This document shows, piece by piece, positions 4,118-13,152 of a DNA stretch of 14,729 nucleotides; positions within the stretch are counted from its first letter, which is position 1, and each line of letters starts with the position of its first letter. The notes beneath the pieces are model-generated. The model did not search any database, was not told the DNA's origin, and saw only the letters and a program-made list of their open reading frames with translations. Source of the stretch: an uncultured Erysipelotrichaceae bacterium (GTDB lineage Bacteria; Bacillota_I; Bacilli_A; RF39; UBA660); contig CADBRE010000023.1 in assembly GCA_902797005.1 (NCBI GenBank), positions 1 through 14,729 of the forward strand, written 5' to 3'. The position numbers and the translations under genes were made by a program.

Positions 4118-4148
4118 AAAACTTGAAACTATTTTTGTTTCAAGTTTT
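4118..4148. terminator. Bidirectional rho-independent terminator between the PBP gene and noc
   Basis: A perfect 12-bp inverted repeat, AAAACTTGAAAC (4118-4129) and GTTTCAAGTTTT (4137-4148), encloses a 7-base loop. A-rich sequence on the left and T-rich sequence on the right give a U-tract on either strand, so it can end both convergent genes. It overlaps the noc stop codon. Confidence 0.85.
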
Positions 4149-5322
4149 AATCTTTTTTTATTTTTATAATAATTTGATACATATCATTAAAGTCAAATTC
4201 TTCAGTATCAACAATAAATCCCATGTCTTCTATTTTTCTAATTTGATCACGAGCATAACCGATTGCTTTACTTAAGCTTTTTTCTTGAAATCCAGTTTCA
4301 TCAGAACTTGGAGATGTCTCTTCTGTATCAATTTCATTTGTATTATTAACTGGCATTTCTTCAAATTGTAGATTTGTACTTTCACCAGTTTGATTATTTC
4401 TAAACTCTTCAATTAAGCTATTTGTAGTTTTTTCTTCTGCTACGCTTTCTGTTGGACTAACAAAGTCAAAACTCATTATTTCGGGTTCTATTTCTTGAAA
4501 TGGATTAATTGCCAAATCATTTGTGCTTTCTTTTACATTGCTTTCATTAGTTTTAGATGATGGCTCATTAACTTCTAATGTCTCTTCTGGTTTTAGTAAC
4601 ATATCTATATCGTTTGGTTTATTAGAAGCAAATATATCTTGTGCATTTGCCTTTATCTCATCAACATTTACATTATATGATTGAGATACTGGTTCTGCAT
4701 TGATTTGTGTGTTTCTGCCAAGTAATTTGTTGATTTCTTCATCCGTTTGTCTTACCGTTAATCTTTCATTCATTATTCTATTTAGCATCATGATTTGCAT
4801 GTTAGTGTCAGTTATGCTCAAAAGACTTCTTGCATGTCTTTCGCTTATTTTATTGTTTAGTAAAGCATCTTTTACTGGAATTGAAAGGTTAAGTAGTCTT
4901 AATTTATTTGCAACTGCAGATTGGGATACACCCATTCTTTTAGCTAAATCTTCTTGAGTTAAATATCCCATGTCTAAGATTTTTTTATAAGATTGTGCTT
5001 CTTCAATTGCAGTTAAATCTTTTCTTTGCAAGTTTTCAACTAATGCAACTTCTGCACTTTGTCTATCATCCATTTCAACAATAATAGCAGGGACAGTTGA
5101 AAGTCCAGCCATCTGAGAAGCTTTATATCTTCTTTCACCAGCTATGATTTCAAATTTATCTCCTAATCTTCTAAGTACTAGTGGTTGAATTACACCATGC
5201 ATTTTTATTGATTCAGATAATTCTTTTAGTTCTTCTTCATTAAAGGTTAAACGTGGTTGAAACCTATTTGGAACAATTTCATCTATTCTAACGTTTATTA
5301 TTTCTTTATTAGCTTCATTCAC
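4147..5322 (-). CDS. noc: Noc-like ParB-family nucleoid occlusion protein with a long acidic linker
   Basis: ParB/Noc CTP-switch protein that loads at a DNA palindrome and spreads as a clamp; Noc blocks division over the nucleoid. The N-terminal CTPase domain has VPNRFQPR (17-24), GERRYKA (62-68) and ENLQR (96-100). The helix-turn-helix covers about 121-165. Wording such as TAIEEAQSYKKI and ERHAR follows Noc rather than Spo0J. Of the four Noc/ParB specificity positions, three are Noc-type (Gln134, Lys140, Arg162); the fourth is Asn145, not Lys. Residues about 205-345 are acidic, Ser/Thr/Asn-rich and probably disordered. The conserved C-terminal domain returns at 349-391, ending YQIIIKIKKD. 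The start is GTG with AAGGGG 9 bases upstream. An in-frame TAA (5323-5325) directly precedes it, so the usual N-terminal amphipathic membrane helix cannot be present. It follows rsmG, as in Bacillus, but soj and spo0J are not next to it. Confidence 0.88.
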   Translation of the reverse strand: MNEANKEIINVRIDEIVPNRFQPRLTFNEEELKELSESIKMHGVIQPLVLRRLGDKFEIIAGERRYKASQMAGLSTVPAIIVEMDDRQSAEVALVENLQRKDLTAIEEAQSYKKILDMGYLTQEDLAKRMGVSQSAVANKLRLLNLSIPVKDALLNNKISERHARSLLSITDTNMQIMMLNRIMNERLTVRQTDEEINKLLGRNTQINAEPVSQSYNVNVDEIKANAQDIFASNKPNDIDMLLKPEETLEVNEPSSKTNESNVKESTNDLAINPFQEIEPEIMSFDFVSPTESVAEEKTTNSLIEEFRNNQTGESTNLQFEEMPVNNTNEIDTEETSPSSDETGFQEKSLSKAIGYARDQIRKIEDMGFIVDTEEFDFNDMYQIIIKIKKD

Positions 5323-5345
5323 TTAAATCAGCCCCTTATCTTTTT

Positions 5346-5376
5346 ATTCTATTTATATTCTACTTTATTTTGTCAA
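5346..5376 (-). promoter_or_regulatory. Possible internal promoter for noc
   Basis: On the minus strand a perfect TTGACA (5371-5376), inside the last codons of rsmG, is followed after 19 bases by TAGAAT (5346-5351). The spacing is longer than ideal. It could give noc separate expression from the mnmE operon. Confidence 0.35.
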
Positions 5377-6081
5377 TTTTTTCAAGTCTTTTATTATCTT
5401 TGAATACTCTCTTGGAAATATTTTGTCTGTTTTTGTAGTTTTTTTGATCTTTAGAATACTTCTATTTGAGTTTTCGATAGGTAAGTGATATGTAATTGTA
5501 TCTTCTAAATAGCTTCCTAATTGTTTTAATTTGTTTTTAGACATTTCTAGTTCTTCTTCAAAATGTGATTTTAATGGTAAGAAATACCCATTAATCTTTA
5601 AAGCTGGAACTTCTAATTCGGTCAATACCATTAAATTAGCTACGGCACGACAAGTAACAACATCAAAAGATTCTCTATGTTTTTTTGAAAAGTCTTCAGC
5701 TCGTTCATTTACTATCTTTACATTGTTAATATTTAATTTTTCTTTTACAATTTTCAGAAAGCCACATTTCTTAGCATTAGATTCTACTAATGTTAAACTT
5801 GCATTAGGTAAGGCTAGGGCTAATACCATTCCCGGAAATCCTGCACCTGTACCTATATCAAGTATTGATTGTGCTTCTTTTATTTCGTCTATTTTTAATA
5901 AATATAAGCAATCAAAGAAATGTTTTAAATAAATATCTTCATCACTTGTGATAGCAGTTAGATTAAATTTTTCATTATATTCTTTTAATAAATCTTTATA
6001 AGAATCTAGTTTTTTTATTGTTTCTTCACTTAAAGCAATATCTATCTTATTTAGTTCAATTATGAACTGTTCTTTATTCAT
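5365..6081 (-). CDS. rsmG: 16S rRNA (guanine-527-N7) methyltransferase RsmG (GidB)
   Basis: Transfers methyl from SAM to N7 of G527 (E. coli numbering) in the 530 loop of 16S rRNA; loss gives low-level streptomycin resistance in several bacteria. The 238 residues match the family. Visible are FNLTAI (39-44), the SAM motif LDIGTGAGFPG (74-84) and a CRAVANL segment in the second half. The ATG overlaps the mnmG stop by 8 bases and has AAGGAG 7 bases upstream inside mnmG, so the two are translationally coupled, as in many bacteria. Confidence 0.97.
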   Translation of the reverse strand: MNKEQFIIELNKIDIALSEETIKKLDSYKDLLKEYNEKFNLTAITSDEDIYLKHFFDCLYLLKIDEIKEAQSILDIGTGAGFPGMVLALALPNASLTLVESNAKKCGFLKIVKEKLNINNVKIVNERAEDFSKKHRESFDVVTCRAVANLMVLTELEVPALKINGYFLPLKSHFEEELEMSKNKLKQLGSYLEDTITYHLPIENSNRSILKIKKTTKTDKIFPREYSKIIKDLKKLTK

Positions 6082-7933
6082 AAGGATACTCCTTCTTTAG
6101 ATATACTAATAACATTGTTATATCAGAAGGGTTAACACCGCTTATTCTTGATGCTTGCCCAATTGTTAGTGGTCTAACTTGTTCAAATTTTTGTCTTGCT
6201 TCTGTTGCTATGTTTCTTACTTTAGAATAGTCTATATCTGTAGGTATTTTCTTGTTTTCTAGATTTAACATCTTTTCTACTTCTTTTTCAGTTTTTTCTA
6301 TGTATCCAGCATATTTTACGCTTATTTCAACTTGTTCTTTTGCTTTTTTATCAAATGTTTTTCCTAATAGTTTTTCTATGTCGTCTATTGTGATTTCTGG
6401 TCTCTTTAATAGTTCCAACGCTACTATTCTTCCAGTTAGGATACTAGATCCTTTTGATGATAAATATTCATTATTTTCTTTTGTTGCTTCAATTTTAGTA
6501 TTTTCTAGTTCTTCTTTTAATTCATCAATTGCCTTTAATTTATTTTGAAAAATTTCATATTTTTCATCTGTTATTAATCCAGCTTTTCTTCCATATTCAG
6601 TTAATCTTATATCTGCATTGTCATGTCTTAATAATAGTCTAAACTCTGCACGAGATGTTAGAAGTCTATAAGGCTCGGTTATTCCTTTATTTATTAAATC
6701 ATCAACAAGAACTCCTATATAAGCTTCATTTCTTTTTAAGATTAATGGTTCTTTATTTTCAAGAGCTAGTGCTGCATTTATACCAGCTATCAATCCTTGC
6801 GCAGCTGCTTCTTCATATCCACTTGTACCATTAATTTGACCAGCAGTATATAAACCTTTAATTTTCTTAGTTTCTAAAGTCATTTTTAGTTCAGTTGAAT
6901 CTATAGCATCATATTCTATCGCATATCCATATTTAACTATTTTTGCATTGTGAAGACCATCCATAGTATGGACTAATTTCTCTTGAAGTTCTTCAGGCAT
7001 CGTAGTTGAAAAGCCACCTACGTATATTTCATCTCCGCCTTTTCTTTCAGGTTCAAGGAATATTTGATGTCTATCTTTGTCTCTAAACTTAACAACTTTA
7101 TCTTCAATTGATGGACAATATCTAGGGCCAATACCTACAATTAGTCCACTATAAAGAGCGCATTTATCTAAGTTATCAAGTATTATTTTATGTGTTTCTT
7201 CATTAGTGTAAGTTAGATAGCATGATTCTTGCTTGTCTATTTCGTATGTAGGCTCATAGAAATTTGAAAAAGTTAATAACTCTTCATCGCCTTTTTCCTC
7301 ATGAGTTTCACTATAATCTATAGAACTTTTTAATACTCTTGGAGGTGTTCCTGTTTTAAGTCTTCTCATAATTAAGCCATGTTCTTGCATACTTTCGCTT
7401 AAATATAAAGATGGTTTTTCTCCGTGTGGACCGCCTTTATGTTTTTCATGACCTCTTAAAATATCTGCATTTAAGTATGTACCTGTAGTTATTATAACTT
7501 TTTTAGATAGTATTCTTTCTCCTGATTCAGTTATTACTCCCTTGATTTCATTATCTTCTACAATAATTTCTTTAACTAAATCTTCTTTTAAATCTAAGTT
7601 TTGCGTATTTTTTAAAGTTTTAAGCATGTTTTCAGGATAAGTTGTTTTATCTGCTTGACATCTTAAACTTCTTACACCTGGTCCTTTTTTTGAATTAAGC
7701 ATTTTTATTTGTAAATGAGATTTATCAGCATTTTGGCCCATTTCTCCACCTAATGCGTCTATTTCTCTTACTACTATACCTTTTGCTGATCCACCTATTG
7801 ATGGGTTGCAAGGCATGTCCGCTATATTGTTAAAATTACCAGTTATTAAAAGTGTCTTATGACCAATTCTAGCAGTTGCTAATGATGCTTCACATCCTGC
7901 ATGTCCTCCACCTATAACTATTACTTCATACAT
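6074..7933 (-). CDS. mnmG: tRNA uridine 5-carboxymethylaminomethyl modification enzyme MnmG (GidA)
   Basis: FAD-dependent partner of MnmE; the complex installs (carboxymethyl)aminomethyl groups at C5 of wobble U34 in tRNAs reading split codon boxes. With this start it has 619 residues. It begins MYEVIVIGGGHAGCEA, with the Rossmann GGGHAG (8-13) that binds FAD. It also carries the conserved GPRYCPSIEDK cysteine motif and the AGQINGTSGYEEAAAQG flavin-binding segment. I prefer ATG 7933 to the in-frame GTG 7942, because AAGAAGGTG lies 6 bases before the ATG and overlaps the GTG. It is 13 bases from mnmE, whose stop abuts this ribosome-binding site, and overlaps rsmG. Confidence 0.97.
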   Translation of the reverse strand: MYEVIVIGGGHAGCEASLATARIGHKTLLITGNFNNIADMPCNPSIGGSAKGIVVREIDALGGEMGQNADKSHLQIKMLNSKKGPGVRSLRCQADKTTYPENMLKTLKNTQNLDLKEDLVKEIIVEDNEIKGVITESGERILSKKVIITTGTYLNADILRGHEKHKGGPHGEKPSLYLSESMQEHGLIMRRLKTGTPPRVLKSSIDYSETHEEKGDEELLTFSNFYEPTYEIDKQESCYLTYTNEETHKIILDNLDKCALYSGLIVGIGPRYCPSIEDKVVKFRDKDRHQIFLEPERKGGDEIYVGGFSTTMPEELQEKLVHTMDGLHNAKIVKYGYAIEYDAIDSTELKMTLETKKIKGLYTAGQINGTSGYEEAAAQGLIAGINAALALENKEPLILKRNEAYIGVLVDDLINKGITEPYRLLTSRAEFRLLLRHDNADIRLTEYGRKAGLITDEKYEIFQNKLKAIDELKEELENTKIEATKENNEYLSSKGSSILTGRIVALELLKRPEITIDDIEKLLGKTFDKKAKEQVEISVKYAGYIEKTEKEVEKMLNLENKKIPTDIDYSKVRNIATEARQKFEQVRPLTIGQASRISGVNPSDITMLLVYLKKEYPYE

Positions 7934-7946
7934 ATTTTTCACCTTC

Positions 7947-9302
7947 TTATTTTCCTAAACAGAACTTAGAGAATATTTCATCAAGTAGTTCATCTTTATA
8001 TGAATCACCAGTTAGTTCTCCTAAAAGTTCCCATAATCTTTGTATGTCAATTTGCACTAAGTCGACAGGAGTACCTAATTTGTTTGAATTATATATTTCT
8101 TTAGTTAATGATATTGCATTTTTTACAATTGAAATTTGTCTAGCATTAGACAAGTAAGTATAATCTCCCGAATCAATTTGCTGTAAATTGAACATCTTAT
8201 TTATTTCTTCATAAATATTATTTATGCCTTCATTATTTTTAAACGAAGTTTTAATTATATTAAAATCTTTTAACTTTTCTATTTCTATTTTTTGCTCTAA
8301 GTCATTCTTATTTACTAAAGCAATTACTTTTTTATCTTGTAGTGATTTAATTATTTCTTCATCTTCTTCAGTTAAATGGCGGCTACCATCAAATATTGCT
8401 ATTATAAGGTCAGCTTCTTCAATGATCTTTTTGCTTTTTTCTACACCGATTTGTTCTACTATATTATCAGTTTCCCTAATTCCAGCCGTGTCGATTAAAT
8501 TTAATGTTATGCCATTCAATATAATTTTTCCTTCAACTATATCTCTTGTTGTTCCTTCTATATCTGTAACTATAGCTTTTTCTTCATCAAGTAGCTTGTT
8601 TAATAATGAACTTTTTCCTACATTTGGCTTACCAATTATTCCAACCTTTATACCATCTTTAATCATTTTACCAATATTGCTTTGTTTTAAAATCTTTTGT
8701 AGTTCGTCTTGTATTTCTTTAATGCTTGTGTCTAATAATTCATTAGTATAAACAATTGCGTCTTCATATTCAGGATAATCTATGTTAACTTCTATATTTG
8801 CAATAATATTTAAGAGCTTATCTCTAAGATTCTTTATTAATCTTGATATCTCACCTGTAGCACCTTTAATTCCCATTTTTCTTGATGACTCATTCTTTGC
8901 TTCAATTAAATCACTTATTGATTCAGCTTCAATTAAGTCTTTTTTACCATTTAAGAATGCTCGTTTTATAAATTCACCAGGTTCGGCTAATCTACATCCA
9001 TGAGTTAATAATAGCTCTAGTATTTTATTAGTACAAGCTATTCCACCATGAGAGTTTATTTCCACAACATCTTCACCAGTATAAGATTTTGGAGAATGGA
9101 AAACGCTTACTAATACTTCATCAATAGTTTCTTCATTATCCATAATAAAACCATAGTTAATGGTAAACCCTTTAACTTTTGTTAGGTCTTTACCTTTAAA
9201 AATAGAATTGACTACCTCAATAGCTTTAGATCCACTTACTTTAATTATATTAATAGCACTTACACCTACTGATGTTGCTATTGCCGCAATTGTGTCTTCC
9301 AT
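7947..9302 (-). CDS. mnmE: tRNA modification GTPase MnmE (TrmE)
   Basis: Potassium-activated GTPase that works with MnmG on wobble U34 of tRNA. It has 451 residues. The N-terminal folate-binding domain starts MEDTIAAIATSVG. The G domain, inserted in a helical domain, shows G1 GKPNVGKS (224-231), G2 GTTRD (250-254), G3 DTAG (271-274) and G4 NKND (331-334). The C-terminal FCLGK supplies the conserved catalytic cysteine. The ATG has AAAGGCGGG as ribosome-binding site. It has its own strong promoter and is separated from jag by a terminator, so it heads an mnmE-mnmG-rsmG(-noc) operon. Confidence 0.98.
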   Translation of the reverse strand: MEDTIAAIATSVGVSAINIIKVSGSKAIEVVNSIFKGKDLTKVKGFTINYGFIMDNEETIDEVLVSVFHSPKSYTGEDVVEINSHGGIACTNKILELLLTHGCRLAEPGEFIKRAFLNGKKDLIEAESISDLIEAKNESSRKMGIKGATGEISRLIKNLRDKLLNIIANIEVNIDYPEYEDAIVYTNELLDTSIKEIQDELQKILKQSNIGKMIKDGIKVGIIGKPNVGKSSLLNKLLDEEKAIVTDIEGTTRDIVEGKIILNGITLNLIDTAGIRETDNIVEQIGVEKSKKIIEEADLIIAIFDGSRHLTEEDEEIIKSLQDKKVIALVNKNDLEQKIEIEKLKDFNIIKTSFKNNEGINNIYEEINKMFNLQQIDSGDYTYLSNARQISIVKNAISLTKEIYNSNKLGTPVDLVQIDIQRLWELLGELTGDSYKDELLDEIFSKFCLGK

Positions 9303-9328: not shown

Positions 9329-9357
9329 ATTATACCACTTTAGGTTAAATGTGTCTA
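9329..9357 (-). promoter_or_regulatory. Strong sigma-A promoter of the mnmE-mnmG-rsmG-noc operon
   Basis: On the minus strand TAGACA (9352-9357, one mismatch to TTGACA) is followed after exactly 17 bases by a perfect TATAAT (9329-9334). A TGG directly before the -10 makes it an extended -10 element. The Noc-binding palindrome lies just upstream of the -35. Confidence 0.8.
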
Positions 9358-9362
9358 GAAAT

Positions 9363-9378
9363 TATTTCCCGGGAAATA
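9363..9378. promoter_or_regulatory. Noc-binding site (NBS), perfect 16-bp palindrome
   Basis: TATTTCCCGGGAAATA matches the published Bacillus Noc-binding consensus (ATTTCCCGGGAAAT core, 9364-9377) at every base. The flanks extend the palindrome to 18 bp (9362-9379). A CCCGGG core is conspicuous in such AT-rich DNA. It lies between the jag terminator and the mnmE promoter; its right half overlaps the U-tract of that terminator. The same window encodes a Noc protein with mainly Noc-type specificity residues, so site and reader are both present. No sequence similar to parS (core CACGTG) was seen. Confidence 0.88.
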
Positions 9379-9404
9379 AAAAAGTAGCATTTTGTAAGCT
9401 ACTT
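9374..9404 (-). terminator. Rho-independent terminator after jag
   Basis: Read on the minus strand, AAGTAGC and GCTACTT (9398-9404 and 9382-9388) form a 7-bp stem over a 9-base loop, followed by TTTTATTT. The stem overlaps the jag stop codon. It closes the rnpA-yidC-jag unit. Confidence 0.8.
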
Positions 9405-10019
9405 GTTATCTTTTTCTTTATATCTAATAACTACACGACGATTTGGTTCTTCACCCTCACTTATAGTTTCAATGTATTCAAACTTTTGTAATGCATTGTG
9501 AACAATTCTTCTTTGGAATGAATTCATAGGATCAAGTTTAATATCTACTTTAGTTAATGTTACTTGTCTAGCTAATTTTTTAACATCTCTTTCTAAGAAA
9601 TAGTTTTGTTTTTCTTTATAATTCTCTATGTCAAGTATAATATTTACTTTTAAACCAAGTTGAGCATTTATGCAATATCTAATATACTTTTGAATTGAAT
9701 CTAATATTCGACCATTCTTTCCTATCAATATGGCATTGTTATTTGAATGAACAGTATAATAGATTTGAGAACCTCTTACTTTTTTTTCAATTTGTCCTTC
9801 AAGATTAAATCCTTTTAAAATATTTTCAAGTATTTGTTTACCTAAGTCTGCAATGTCTGAAATCTTTACTATTTCAAGAACCGTTTTCTTTCCTGAAAAT
9901 AATCCACCTTTTTCTTCACTTGTTTTAAATAGAATATCTTCTTCTGTACATTCTAGTTCAACTAAAGCTGTTTTTAATAAATCCTCTTTATTTTTTCCTT
10001 TGTAAACATACTTTTCCAT
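9399..10019 (-). CDS. jag: Jag/KhpB-type RNA-binding protein (Jag-N, KH, R3H)
   Basis: RNA-binding protein usually encoded next to yidC; KhpB homologues partner KhpA and influence cell elongation and division in streptococci. With this start it has 206 residues. A Jag-N domain (about 1-50) includes a GGLFSGKK turn, the KH domain (about 70-135) has LIGKNGRILDS with GKNG at 100-103, and the C-terminal R3H domain has FQRRIVHNAL (Arg170 to His174). I prefer ATG 10019 to the in-frame GTG 10028, because AAGGA is 10 bases from the ATG and only one base from the GTG. The linker between Jag-N and KH is short compared with long pneumococcal forms. Confidence 0.93.
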   Translation of the reverse strand: MEKYVYKGKNKEDLLKTALVELECTEEDILFKTSEEKGGLFSGKKTVLEIVKISDIADLGKQILENILKGFNLEGQIEKKVRGSQIYYTVHSNNNAILIGKNGRILDSIQKYIRYCINAQLGLKVNIILDIENYKEKQNYFLERDVKKLARQVTLTKVDIKLDPMNSFQRRIVHNALQKFEYIETISEGEEPNRRVVIRYKEKDNK

Positions 10020-10037
10020 TACTTCCACTTCCTTTTT

Positions 10038-11505: not shown

Positions 11506-11534
11506 ATTATAAAACATAGAATAGTATTTGTCAA
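11506..11534 (-). promoter_or_regulatory. Consensus sigma-A promoter of rpmH
   Basis: On the minus strand a perfect TTGACA (11529-11534) and a perfect TATAAT (11506-11511) are exactly 17 bases apart, about 50 bases before the rpmH start. It is probably the strongest promoter in the window. It lies at the edge of the upstream DnaA-box cluster, so origin-bound DnaA could affect it. Confidence 0.88.
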
Positions 11535-11766: not shown

Positions 11767-13152
11767 ATGGACGGAGTAAATATATGGCAAAACTTTTTAA
11801 ATCAAATTAATGACAAAGTCAGTAGTCTCTCTTTTAATACATGGTTTAATAGCTTAAAACTTTTAGCAATTAATGATGAAGAAATAATTCTTGCTGATCC
11901 TGGTAAAGCTATTAAAGATCAATTAACTATTTATTATAAGGAACTAATTGATGAGACTTTATTAGAGCTTACAGGAAAAACTTATAAACTAATATTTAAA
12001 GATGAAAATACTTATGTACCACCTGAAAGGACAAATGTTAATAATAATTCAGTTATCAACAATGTAGAAATAGATAAAAAGAGAATTGATAATTATAAAA
12101 CTAATTTAAATCCTAAATACACATTTGATAATTTTGTTGTTGGTGAAGCTAATCGATATGCTTTTAGTAGCTCACTTGCAGTTGCACAAAATCCTGGAAA
12201 GCTTTACAATCCATTATTTATTTATGGTAAAAGTGGACTAGGTAAAACACATTTAATGCATGCGATAGGTAATTATATTACTGCAAACTCTGATTTAAAG
12301 GTATTATATACTGATGCAGATACATTTATGAATGAGTTTGTTAAAATGACTAGGGATACTGGTGATAAAGACCAAAACTTAAGTTATATAGAACTGTTTA
12401 AGAGTAAGTATAGAGATATAGATGTACTTATGATTGATGAAATTCAATTCTTAGGAAGTGCGACAGCAACGCAGCAAGAGTTTACCAATACTTTTAATAG
12501 TTTATATTATAATGATAAACAAATAATTATATGTTCAGATAGAAGTGTTAATGACTTAAAAATGTTTGAGGATAGACTTAGGACTAGATTTAACTGGGGA
12601 CTTAAAGCTATTATTAACGTTCCTGAATATGATTTAAAAGTAAAAATTATAAAGAATAAAATAAAAGAAGTTGATGAAAGCTTAGATTTATCTGATGAAA
12701 TTATTGATTTTATAGCATCAAACTGTGGAAGTGATGTTAGAAATCTTGAAGGGTCTGTTAGAAGATTACAAGCTTATGCAGCAATTATGAACATAAAACT
12801 TTATGATTTACAAACAGCTATAGAAGCACTTGATGAATACGCAAATGGAAGAGGAACATTTACAGATAATTCAATAGGTAAAATAATGAATATAGTAGCT
12901 AATTACTTTAATTTATCAACAGATGATTTAACTGGTAAACGAAGGAGTAAAGAAATAGCTAATGCTAGAATGATAGCTATGTATTTATGTAAATTGTTAA
13001 CTGAAGAAACTCTTGAAAGAATTGGACTTGAGTTTGGTGGAAGAGATCATTCAACAGTTATACACGCTTGTGAAAAAATTGGAGATGACATTAAAACAAA
13101 TAGTGAGCTAGAGAAGATAATTTCAGAGTTAAAAGTAAAGATGAGTGAATAA
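11767..13152 (+). CDS. dnaA: Chromosomal replication initiator protein DnaA
   Basis: ATP-dependent initiator that binds DnaA boxes, melts the origin and loads the helicase. The 461 residues hold domain I (about 1-80, starting NIWQNFLNQI), a short Asn-rich domain II (about 85-112) and the AAA+ domain III. Domain III shows Walker A GKSGLGKT (154-161), Walker B LMIDEIQFL (221-229), sensor 1 near SD 257-258, a likely arginine finger Arg274 in LRTRFNWG, and sensor 2 Arg325. Domain IV ends with the DNA-binding signature GRDHSTV (425-431). The ATG follows GTGGGGTGA. It is flanked on both sides by DnaA boxes. Confidence 0.99.
   Translation: MDGVNIWQNFLNQINDKVSSLSFNTWFNSLKLLAINDEEIILADPGKAIKDQLTIYYKELIDETLLELTGKTYKLIFKDENTYVPPERTNVNNNSVINNVEIDKKRIDNYKTNLNPKYTFDNFVVGEANRYAFSSSLAVAQNPGKLYNPLFIYGKSGLGKTHLMHAIGNYITANSDLKVLYTDADTFMNEFVKMTRDTGDKDQNLSYIELFKSKYRDIDVLMIDEIQFLGSATATQQEFTNTFNSLYYNDKQIIICSDRSVNDLKMFEDRLRTRFNWGLKAIINVPEYDLKVKIIKNKIKEVDESLDLSDEIIDFIASNCGSDVRNLEGSVRRLQAYAAIMNIKLYDLQTAIEALDEYANGRGTFTDNSIGKIMNIVANYFNLSTDDLTGKRRSKEIANARMIAMYLCKLLTEETLERIGLEFGGRDHSTVIHACEKIGDDIKTNSELEKIISELKVKMSE

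Follow-up and report, generated by a model that had tools for sequence, protein, structure and literature searches.

The exact palindromic 16-mer TATTTCCCGGGAAATA at positions 9363..9378 of the window (the whole analysed stretch of 14,729 nucleotides) is very probably a binding site (NBS) for Noc, as judged from the sequences of the site and of the protein encoded nearby. Noc is a well-studied example of a ParB duplicate that came to recognize another site and took on another task. In the family to which this genome belongs, the Noc-NBS pair resembles Noc in its sequences and parS in the arrangement of its sites. It appears likely that this pair is an origin-restricted, ParB-parS-like variant in which the NBS is the loading site for a Noc that acts as a clamp of the origin domain and not in genome-wide occlusion; in this family, then, Noc probably marks the origin.

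The 16-mer, which has no strand, is enclosed in a perfect, likewise strandless palindrome of 18 bp (9362..9379) and has the same core as the assay oligonucleotide of PMC8429893; according to the available excerpts of PMC8429893 and PMC7383237, the published NBS assay oligonucleotide includes the identical 16 letters. The initial annotation had described an exact copy of the Bacillus NBS extended to an 18-bp palindrome, and this description is accurate. Within the window, TATTTCCCGGGAAATA is the sole match at up to three mismatches (mean of 0.06 in shuffled sequences). The site is followed on the minus strand by the operon mnmE-mnmG-rsmG-noc, which spans positions 9302 to 4147 and consists of mnmE (7947..9302, the first gene, downstream of the NBS), mnmG (6074..7942), rsmG (5365..6081) and noc (4147..5322), all on the minus strand; the gene order and the gap of 42 bases between rsmG and noc (5323-5364) are as originally annotated. 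On the other side lie jag (9399..10028, minus strand), which belongs to the upstream transcription unit, and dnaA (11767..13152, plus strand), used here as the oriC marker, which starts 2.4 kb from the NBS on the side opposite to the mnmE operon.

A promoter-like site of the sigma-70 type, TAGACA-17-TATAAT with TG before the -10 (9329..9357, minus strand, 11 of 12 matches), starts 5 bp downstream of the 16-mer on the minus strand and is conserved in G074, the second genome of the genus; it is likely to be the mnmE promoter, with the proviso that promoter-like matches are not more common in the window than in shuffled sequences. The previously given distance of 6 bases between the NBS and the -35 is correct when measured from the 14-bp core and becomes 5 bp when measured from the 16-mer. 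In addition, a perfect TTGACA-17-TATAAT match is located upstream of rnpA (11506-11534, minus strand). A predicted hairpin with a U-run at the end of jag (9378..9404, minus strand) touches the NBS, the U-run extending to the first base of the 16-mer; it is missing from the output of the terminator scan of the window. In G074, extra bases separate the jag hairpin from the NBS, so that the overlap is not conserved. Thus, the claim that the NBS overlaps the U-tract of the jag terminator holds for the window at the level of a predicted structure and fails in the congener.

Since the palindrome is next to a hairpin and a promoter, places at which other palindromes are also found, it might instead serve another regulator or be part of the terminator, or it might be a chance match. 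Such an explanation is extremely improbable. At the G+C content of the window, about 0.0003 exact copies are expected in the 1.019 Mb of the own assembly, compared with 2 observed. At least one NBS with no more than one mismatch was identified in 106 of the 117 family genomes (116 genera), for a total of 315 sites (median of 2 per genome), against 7 for the reversed pattern over the same 117 genomes; 105 genomes carry 1-8 sites each. Moreover, the motif recurs in unrelated contexts (rsmI, dnaX, rsmG and parS clusters), as fits a site that is read as DNA. The earlier argument that conservation of the site to the base in a distant lineage of Bacilli suggests a functional system is supported to the extent that the genome carries an exact NBS and encodes a matching Noc.

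In the remaining 11 of the 117 genomes, no NBS was found at up to one mismatch, and 9 of these 11 encode a Noc-type protein; a coupled loss of noc and NBS was considered and rejected, there being no clear association between the two. The other two genomes yielded, respectively, no Noc match (G103) and a ParB-like match only (G089). Conversely, four genomes (G011, G025, G064 and G112) contain one or two NBS, yet the Noc search gives only weak matches of ParB strength; the family assemblies are fragmented metagenome assemblies. In one genome without an NBS at this threshold (G101), variant palindromes with two mismatches are present, which suggests drift. Another genome (G034) has an altered parS (TGTTACACGTGTAACA) in nine copies (L292:11956-12976) and no NBS while Noc is present, a possible case of co-evolved specificity.

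The own assembly (1.019 Mb, 175 contigs, 90.7% complete) contains two exact NBS, none with one or two mismatches and three with three mismatches. Many degenerate NBS dispersed over this genome were considered as well and rejected: matches at up to three mismatches equal those of the reversed pattern (5 and 5). The second exact NBS is located inside rsmI on contig C90, 6.4 kb from a parS cluster. The initial annotation had named the lack of any other NBS-like site in the genome as a refutation, and with a single additional NBS in the whole-genome scan its proposal survives narrowly. Contig C90 encompasses the end of gyrB, gyrA, the parS cluster, tadA, dnaX, recR, rsmI, pth and mfd; four of the five parS in the cluster are exact and the fifth has a mismatch. 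Gene order suggests that this contig follows on the window at its dnaN end. A soj-parB pair is encoded separately, on contig C108. A role of Noc as a substitute for an absent ParB was rejected because ParB, Soj and the parS cluster are all present.

The locations of the sites were analyzed in 45 genomes, namely 24 listed with coordinates, 20 from a set of 22 genomes chosen mostly for contiguity (one duplicate and one genome without a site were dropped) and the own genome; this is not a random sample. These genomes hold 148 sites, of which 147 were examined, the one left out being a one-mismatch site on contig C15 of G015. The dnaA segment, defined by the order noc operon - dnaA - gyrA - parS - tadA - dnaX - rsmI - pth - mfd - spoVT, with neighboring genes used where dnaA is on another contig, accounts for 143 of the 147 sites and for 109 of the 110 exact ones. 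Four examined sites lie outside this segment, one of them exact (in G015). The 25 contigs with both dnaA and an NBS contain 70 sites in total; none of these is more than 27.1 kb away from dnaA, and 67 are within 20 kb. For example, the dnaA contig of G094 is 1.04 Mb long and all four of its one-mismatch sites are at most 27.1 kb from dnaA. Under a uniform distribution, with one site counted per contig, the chance of such clustering is about 10^-12, a value that is only rough because the 28-kb limit was set post hoc and the genomes are related. Hence in this family the NBS behave like parS, that is, as a few sites clustered near oriC.

The similarity to parS extends to the places that the sites occupy. 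The gyrA-tadA-dnaX gaps contain 73 sites in 25 of the 45 genomes, and 64 of the 147 NBS, in 22 genomes, are located within 150 bp of a parS (up to two mismatches). In several cases, the two sites alternate in composite arrays of nearly constant spacing, some units of which carry a mismatch in either site: five parS-NBS units with an offset of 28-29 bp in G110 (L156:13340-15200, gyrA-tadA gap), four units with an offset of 34-35 bp in G059, four units at 36-37 bp in G487 (MAG UBA3789; L307:17760-18260, gyrA-tadA gap) and, in G022, an 80-bp tandem array of 12.8 copies with a consensus of one NBS and one parS (L215:11134-12148, gyrA-tadA gap). This interleaving, together with the presence of a separate soj-parB, raises the question whether Noc is simply a second ParB, with its main job in the recruitment of SMC or Soj at a composite parS/NBS locus that serves as a redundant centromere. 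This reading is rather unlikely given that no NBS is present inside the parS cluster of the own genome and that the ParA-binding motif, as described in the accessible part of PMC12704722, is missing before NRFQPR in all 52 distinct family Noc sequences.

The second recurrent place is rsmI, which carries an NBS in 14 of the 45 genomes. In the rsmI alignment, ATT TCC CGG GAA ATA is found at one column in 13 of 26 genomes while the neighboring synonymous codons vary. These codons encode ISREI with the rare TCC CGG (e.g., L043:9781-9794), and CGG makes up about 1.8% of the arginine codons in the family loci (some of which overlap) and 1 of 296 in the counted genes of the own genome. The rsmI genes without the site have AGA, AGG, CGA or CGT at this codon, the exception being G090, where CGG occurs together with a version of the site that differs by one base. 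Because the 13 sequences are defined by carrying the site, the argument rests on its recurrence at one place against rare codons and not on the mutual identity of these sequences. In dnaX, 13 NBS were detected in 12 genomes; a single conserved dnaX site was rejected, the 13 sites being in a poorly alignable region and mostly at different columns. In G082, a parS is located inside dnaX (L240:19269), the gene that carries an NBS in other genomes. A one-mismatch NBS in G087 (C121:2578, L249) precedes the dnaA match by 141 bp, in the interval between rnpA and dnaA, and is a candidate dnaA promoter site.

The 391-amino acid protein encoded by noc in the window (GTG start) contains the ParB_N and HTH_ParB domains, a long variable linker and a Noc-type C-terminus. 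It scores below the curated cut-off of TIGR04285 (282.5 against 315 bits), with a match that covers only positions 1-205 of 255, and among solved structures its best sequence matches are to Noc (7nfu, E = 7e-58). A tree was built from 76 of 147 rows; its Noc side and ParB side are separated by a branch with 98/90 support, and the family Noc proteins form a 100/98 branch inside the Noc side; the Noc and ParB labels are taken from one residue, with L134 and L095 on the opposite side and four rows unlabeled, and the tree contains no Noc of family f17. Of the residues responsible for NBS specificity in Bacillus subtilis Noc, given in the available text of PMC7383237 as Q158, K164 or K169, and R186, the counterparts Q134, K140 and R162 are invariant in 15 of 15 family Noc proteins, and the position of B. 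subtilis K169 is N145; the Q-4x-K pattern is present in 51 of 52. The arrangement typical of parS specificity (R...G before HAR) is not found in Noc, which has R162, and the separate ParB has the G. As far as sequence comparison goes, the protein is an orthologue of Noc that carries the specificity residues for NBS and is distinct from the ParB of this genome. GERR in 52 of 52 and ENxQR, invariant in 15 of 15, agree with CTP binding by the family Noc.

B. subtilis Noc depends on an N-terminal amphipathic helix, as reported in the accessible portions of PMC4331003 and PMC8429893. The GTG start of the window noc immediately follows an in-frame stop and only 18 residues precede NRFQPR, so there is no room for an amphipathic helix. 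A regular expression for motifs like the membrane-targeting one (MTS-like) detected none in 52 distinct family Noc proteins, which were taken from family loci outside the named set, whereas of 13 outgroup Noc proteins picked up by a similar script, 12 begin with a helix sequence of the MK..FSR type. In 45 of these 52, the start is at most 22 residues before NRFQPR; longer frames exist in 7. The Bacillus-type N-terminal membrane helix is therefore absent from the window Noc as its gene reads, and the long linker might still provide a contact with the membrane at another place. Listed Noc-type open frames of the family are 343-728 amino acids long, except for one of 237 that is cut at a contig end, compared with 272-300 in the outgroup; the C-terminus of the family proteins, judged by eye, is Noc-like, and the linker between is long and variable. 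Short motifs common to some relatives are present in this linker, at residues about 205-345 (NPFQE... and NSLIEEFR...), and might bind partners. A 675-amino acid Noc-like protein from family f17 (L278, genome G143) has a hydrophobic C-terminal end, GFWNLFK, to which contact with the membrane may have moved.

Classical genome-wide nucleoid occlusion as in B. subtilis, with many NBS on the chromosome arms, few at the terminus, and membrane tethering, is compatible with the orthology of Noc and the identity of the NBS core. A fixed pattern could also miss degenerate sites: among Bacillaceae and other named relatives, the exact 14-mer is present in only 3 of 12 genomes, so the exact pattern undercounts there. 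For this reason, the exact 14-mer was rejected as a basis for comparison with these relatives, and the comparison relies on the one-mismatch search and on published counts. Nevertheless, this reading is very improbable and, for the family, largely refuted: the own genome contains two sites, with degenerate ones no more numerous than in the reversed control at three mismatches, family sites are limited to the origin segment and the membrane helix is missing. Neither in the own genome nor in the family do NBS cover the chromosome outside the terminus. Furthermore, the same pattern at one mismatch does find dispersed sites in genomes outside the family, among the matches listed: eight, all one-mismatch, on the single 3.0-Mb contig of G137 (f11), the nearest about 287 kb from dnaA; 19 on ten contigs in Psychrobacillus (G485), two of them 24-27 kb from dnaA; 16, all one-mismatch, on 13 contigs in G386 (f13); and 7-9 on six or seven contigs in each of three f19 genomes. 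In G143 (f17), by contrast, the listed matches are clustered: the five sites are all about 26 kb or less from dnaA and are found beside parB, close to tadA and dnaX, and in two gaps of the noc operon (rsmG/mnmG and mnmG/mnmE). Since the Noc proteins of f19 have no recognizable N-terminal helix while the NBS-like sites, almost all of them with a mismatch, are dispersed, loss of the helix and clustering are not strictly coupled. With no N-terminal helix and no sites elsewhere, the family Noc is unlikely to be a chromosome-wide, membrane-tethered occluder of the Bacillus type.

The site at 9363 itself invites another interpretation, already put forward in the initial annotation, namely autoregulation: Noc bound there, abutting the -35, would repress or activate mnmE-mnmG-rsmG-noc, and the other sites would be secondary. 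In the congener G074, the rsmI NBS is kept exactly and the mnmE-promoter NBS has one central base changed; the -35 and -10 of this promoter are identical and their distance from the NBS is preserved. An NBS with at most one mismatch is present in the noc operon in 16 of the 45 genomes, at four places (upstream of mnmE, the mnmE/mnmG gap, inside rsmG and the rsmG/noc gap); 8 are upstream of mnmE, four of these exact, with jag and mnmE covered together in 32 of the 45 genomes. G143, from another family, has sites in two gaps of this operon. However, the operon lacks an NBS in 29 of the 45 genomes, of which 25 carry one in the parS gap, dnaX or rsmI; only two genomes (G006 and G047) have sites in the operon alone, and the position within the operon varies. 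In 40 named family-like loci, chosen by similarity from the best 80 matches, no NBS was found between jag and mnmE in any of the 25 with both genes, and an NBS anywhere in the stretch around noc was found in 3 of the 40. A family-wide operator at the mnmE promoter was accordingly rejected. Autoregulation as the main role thus seems doubtful. Of the idea that Noc controls its own operon, the exact site, the matching Noc, the conservation in G074 and the 16 genomes with operon NBS speak for a possible local effect, which is not general in the family; likewise, the palindrome is retained with one change in the alignment of the congener and is missing between jag and mnmE in the 25 named loci.

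The origin-domain reading is preferred over these alternatives. The distribution over the chromosome that is known from Bacillus is missing here, so that autoregulation would be at most a side effect. According to the proposed scheme, the palindrome at 9363-9378 would serve to load the Noc whose gene lies 4 kb away, in a family whose genomes typically appear to have from one to a few NBS, almost always at most about 27 kb from dnaA and often interleaved with parS. Noc would bind the NBS and close with CTP into a sliding clamp; the clamps would load the DNA around oriC and mark the newly replicated origin domain beside ParB. Its likelier outputs would be to regulate the segregation of the origin, the initiation of replication or division, the last over the origin only. 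As the mnmE promoter would be covered, too, by clamps that load at 9363, some feedback on noc is plausible. A role at the origin has precedents: as reported in the accessible parts of the respective papers, Staphylococcus aureus Noc restrains replication initiation (PMC5540599), and in B. subtilis Spo0J and Noc jointly prevent premature Z rings upon an early replication block (PMC6852036).

A more far-reaching and tentative version, considered less likely than its opposite, is a composite two-clamp centromere, in which alternating parS and NBS by oriC would serve as entry points for ParB and Noc, the two cooperating in origin segregation or the control of initiation, with membrane-tethered genome-wide occlusion being a later specialization of the Bacillales type. 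No paper on origin-clustered or parS-interleaved NBS was found in a search of titles and the starts of abstracts, mostly in non-subscription literature. A large lineage that keeps NBS specificity, with origin-restricted sites mixed with parS and without the membrane helix, provides a missing comparison that bears on the role of a Noc that does not occlude the whole chromosome and on whether the change in specificity came before or after the spread of the sites. The parS-NBS arrays are a natural example of neighboring loading sites for what would be two CTP clamps that differ in specificity.

Among the known systems, the family Noc-NBS resembles that of B. subtilis and S. aureus in the orthologue beside rsmG, the Q-K-R residues and the same NBS core (PMC7383237 and PMC8429893, in their accessible parts), and in the ParB-type CTPase and DNA-binding domains. 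The differences are that about 70 NBS are reported over the chromosome of B. subtilis and 41 over that of S. aureus (available text of PMC4331003 and PMC5540599, respectively), whereas the family has few, near dnaA where examined, and that its Noc lacks the N-terminal amphipathic helix and has a longer linker. KorB-type CTP clamp repressors, as presented in the available part of PMC11790492, are similar in being ParB-family clamps at promoters and provide a model for autoregulation; KorB, however, is an Escherichia coli plasmid system. With ParB-parS (Spo0J), the family shares few clustered sites, within tens of kb of oriC and some within genes, and a paralogous clamp protein, but the predicted specificity of Noc is for NBS, R replaces G before HAR, there is no soj beside noc in the window, and a canonical ParB with parS coexists in the own genome.
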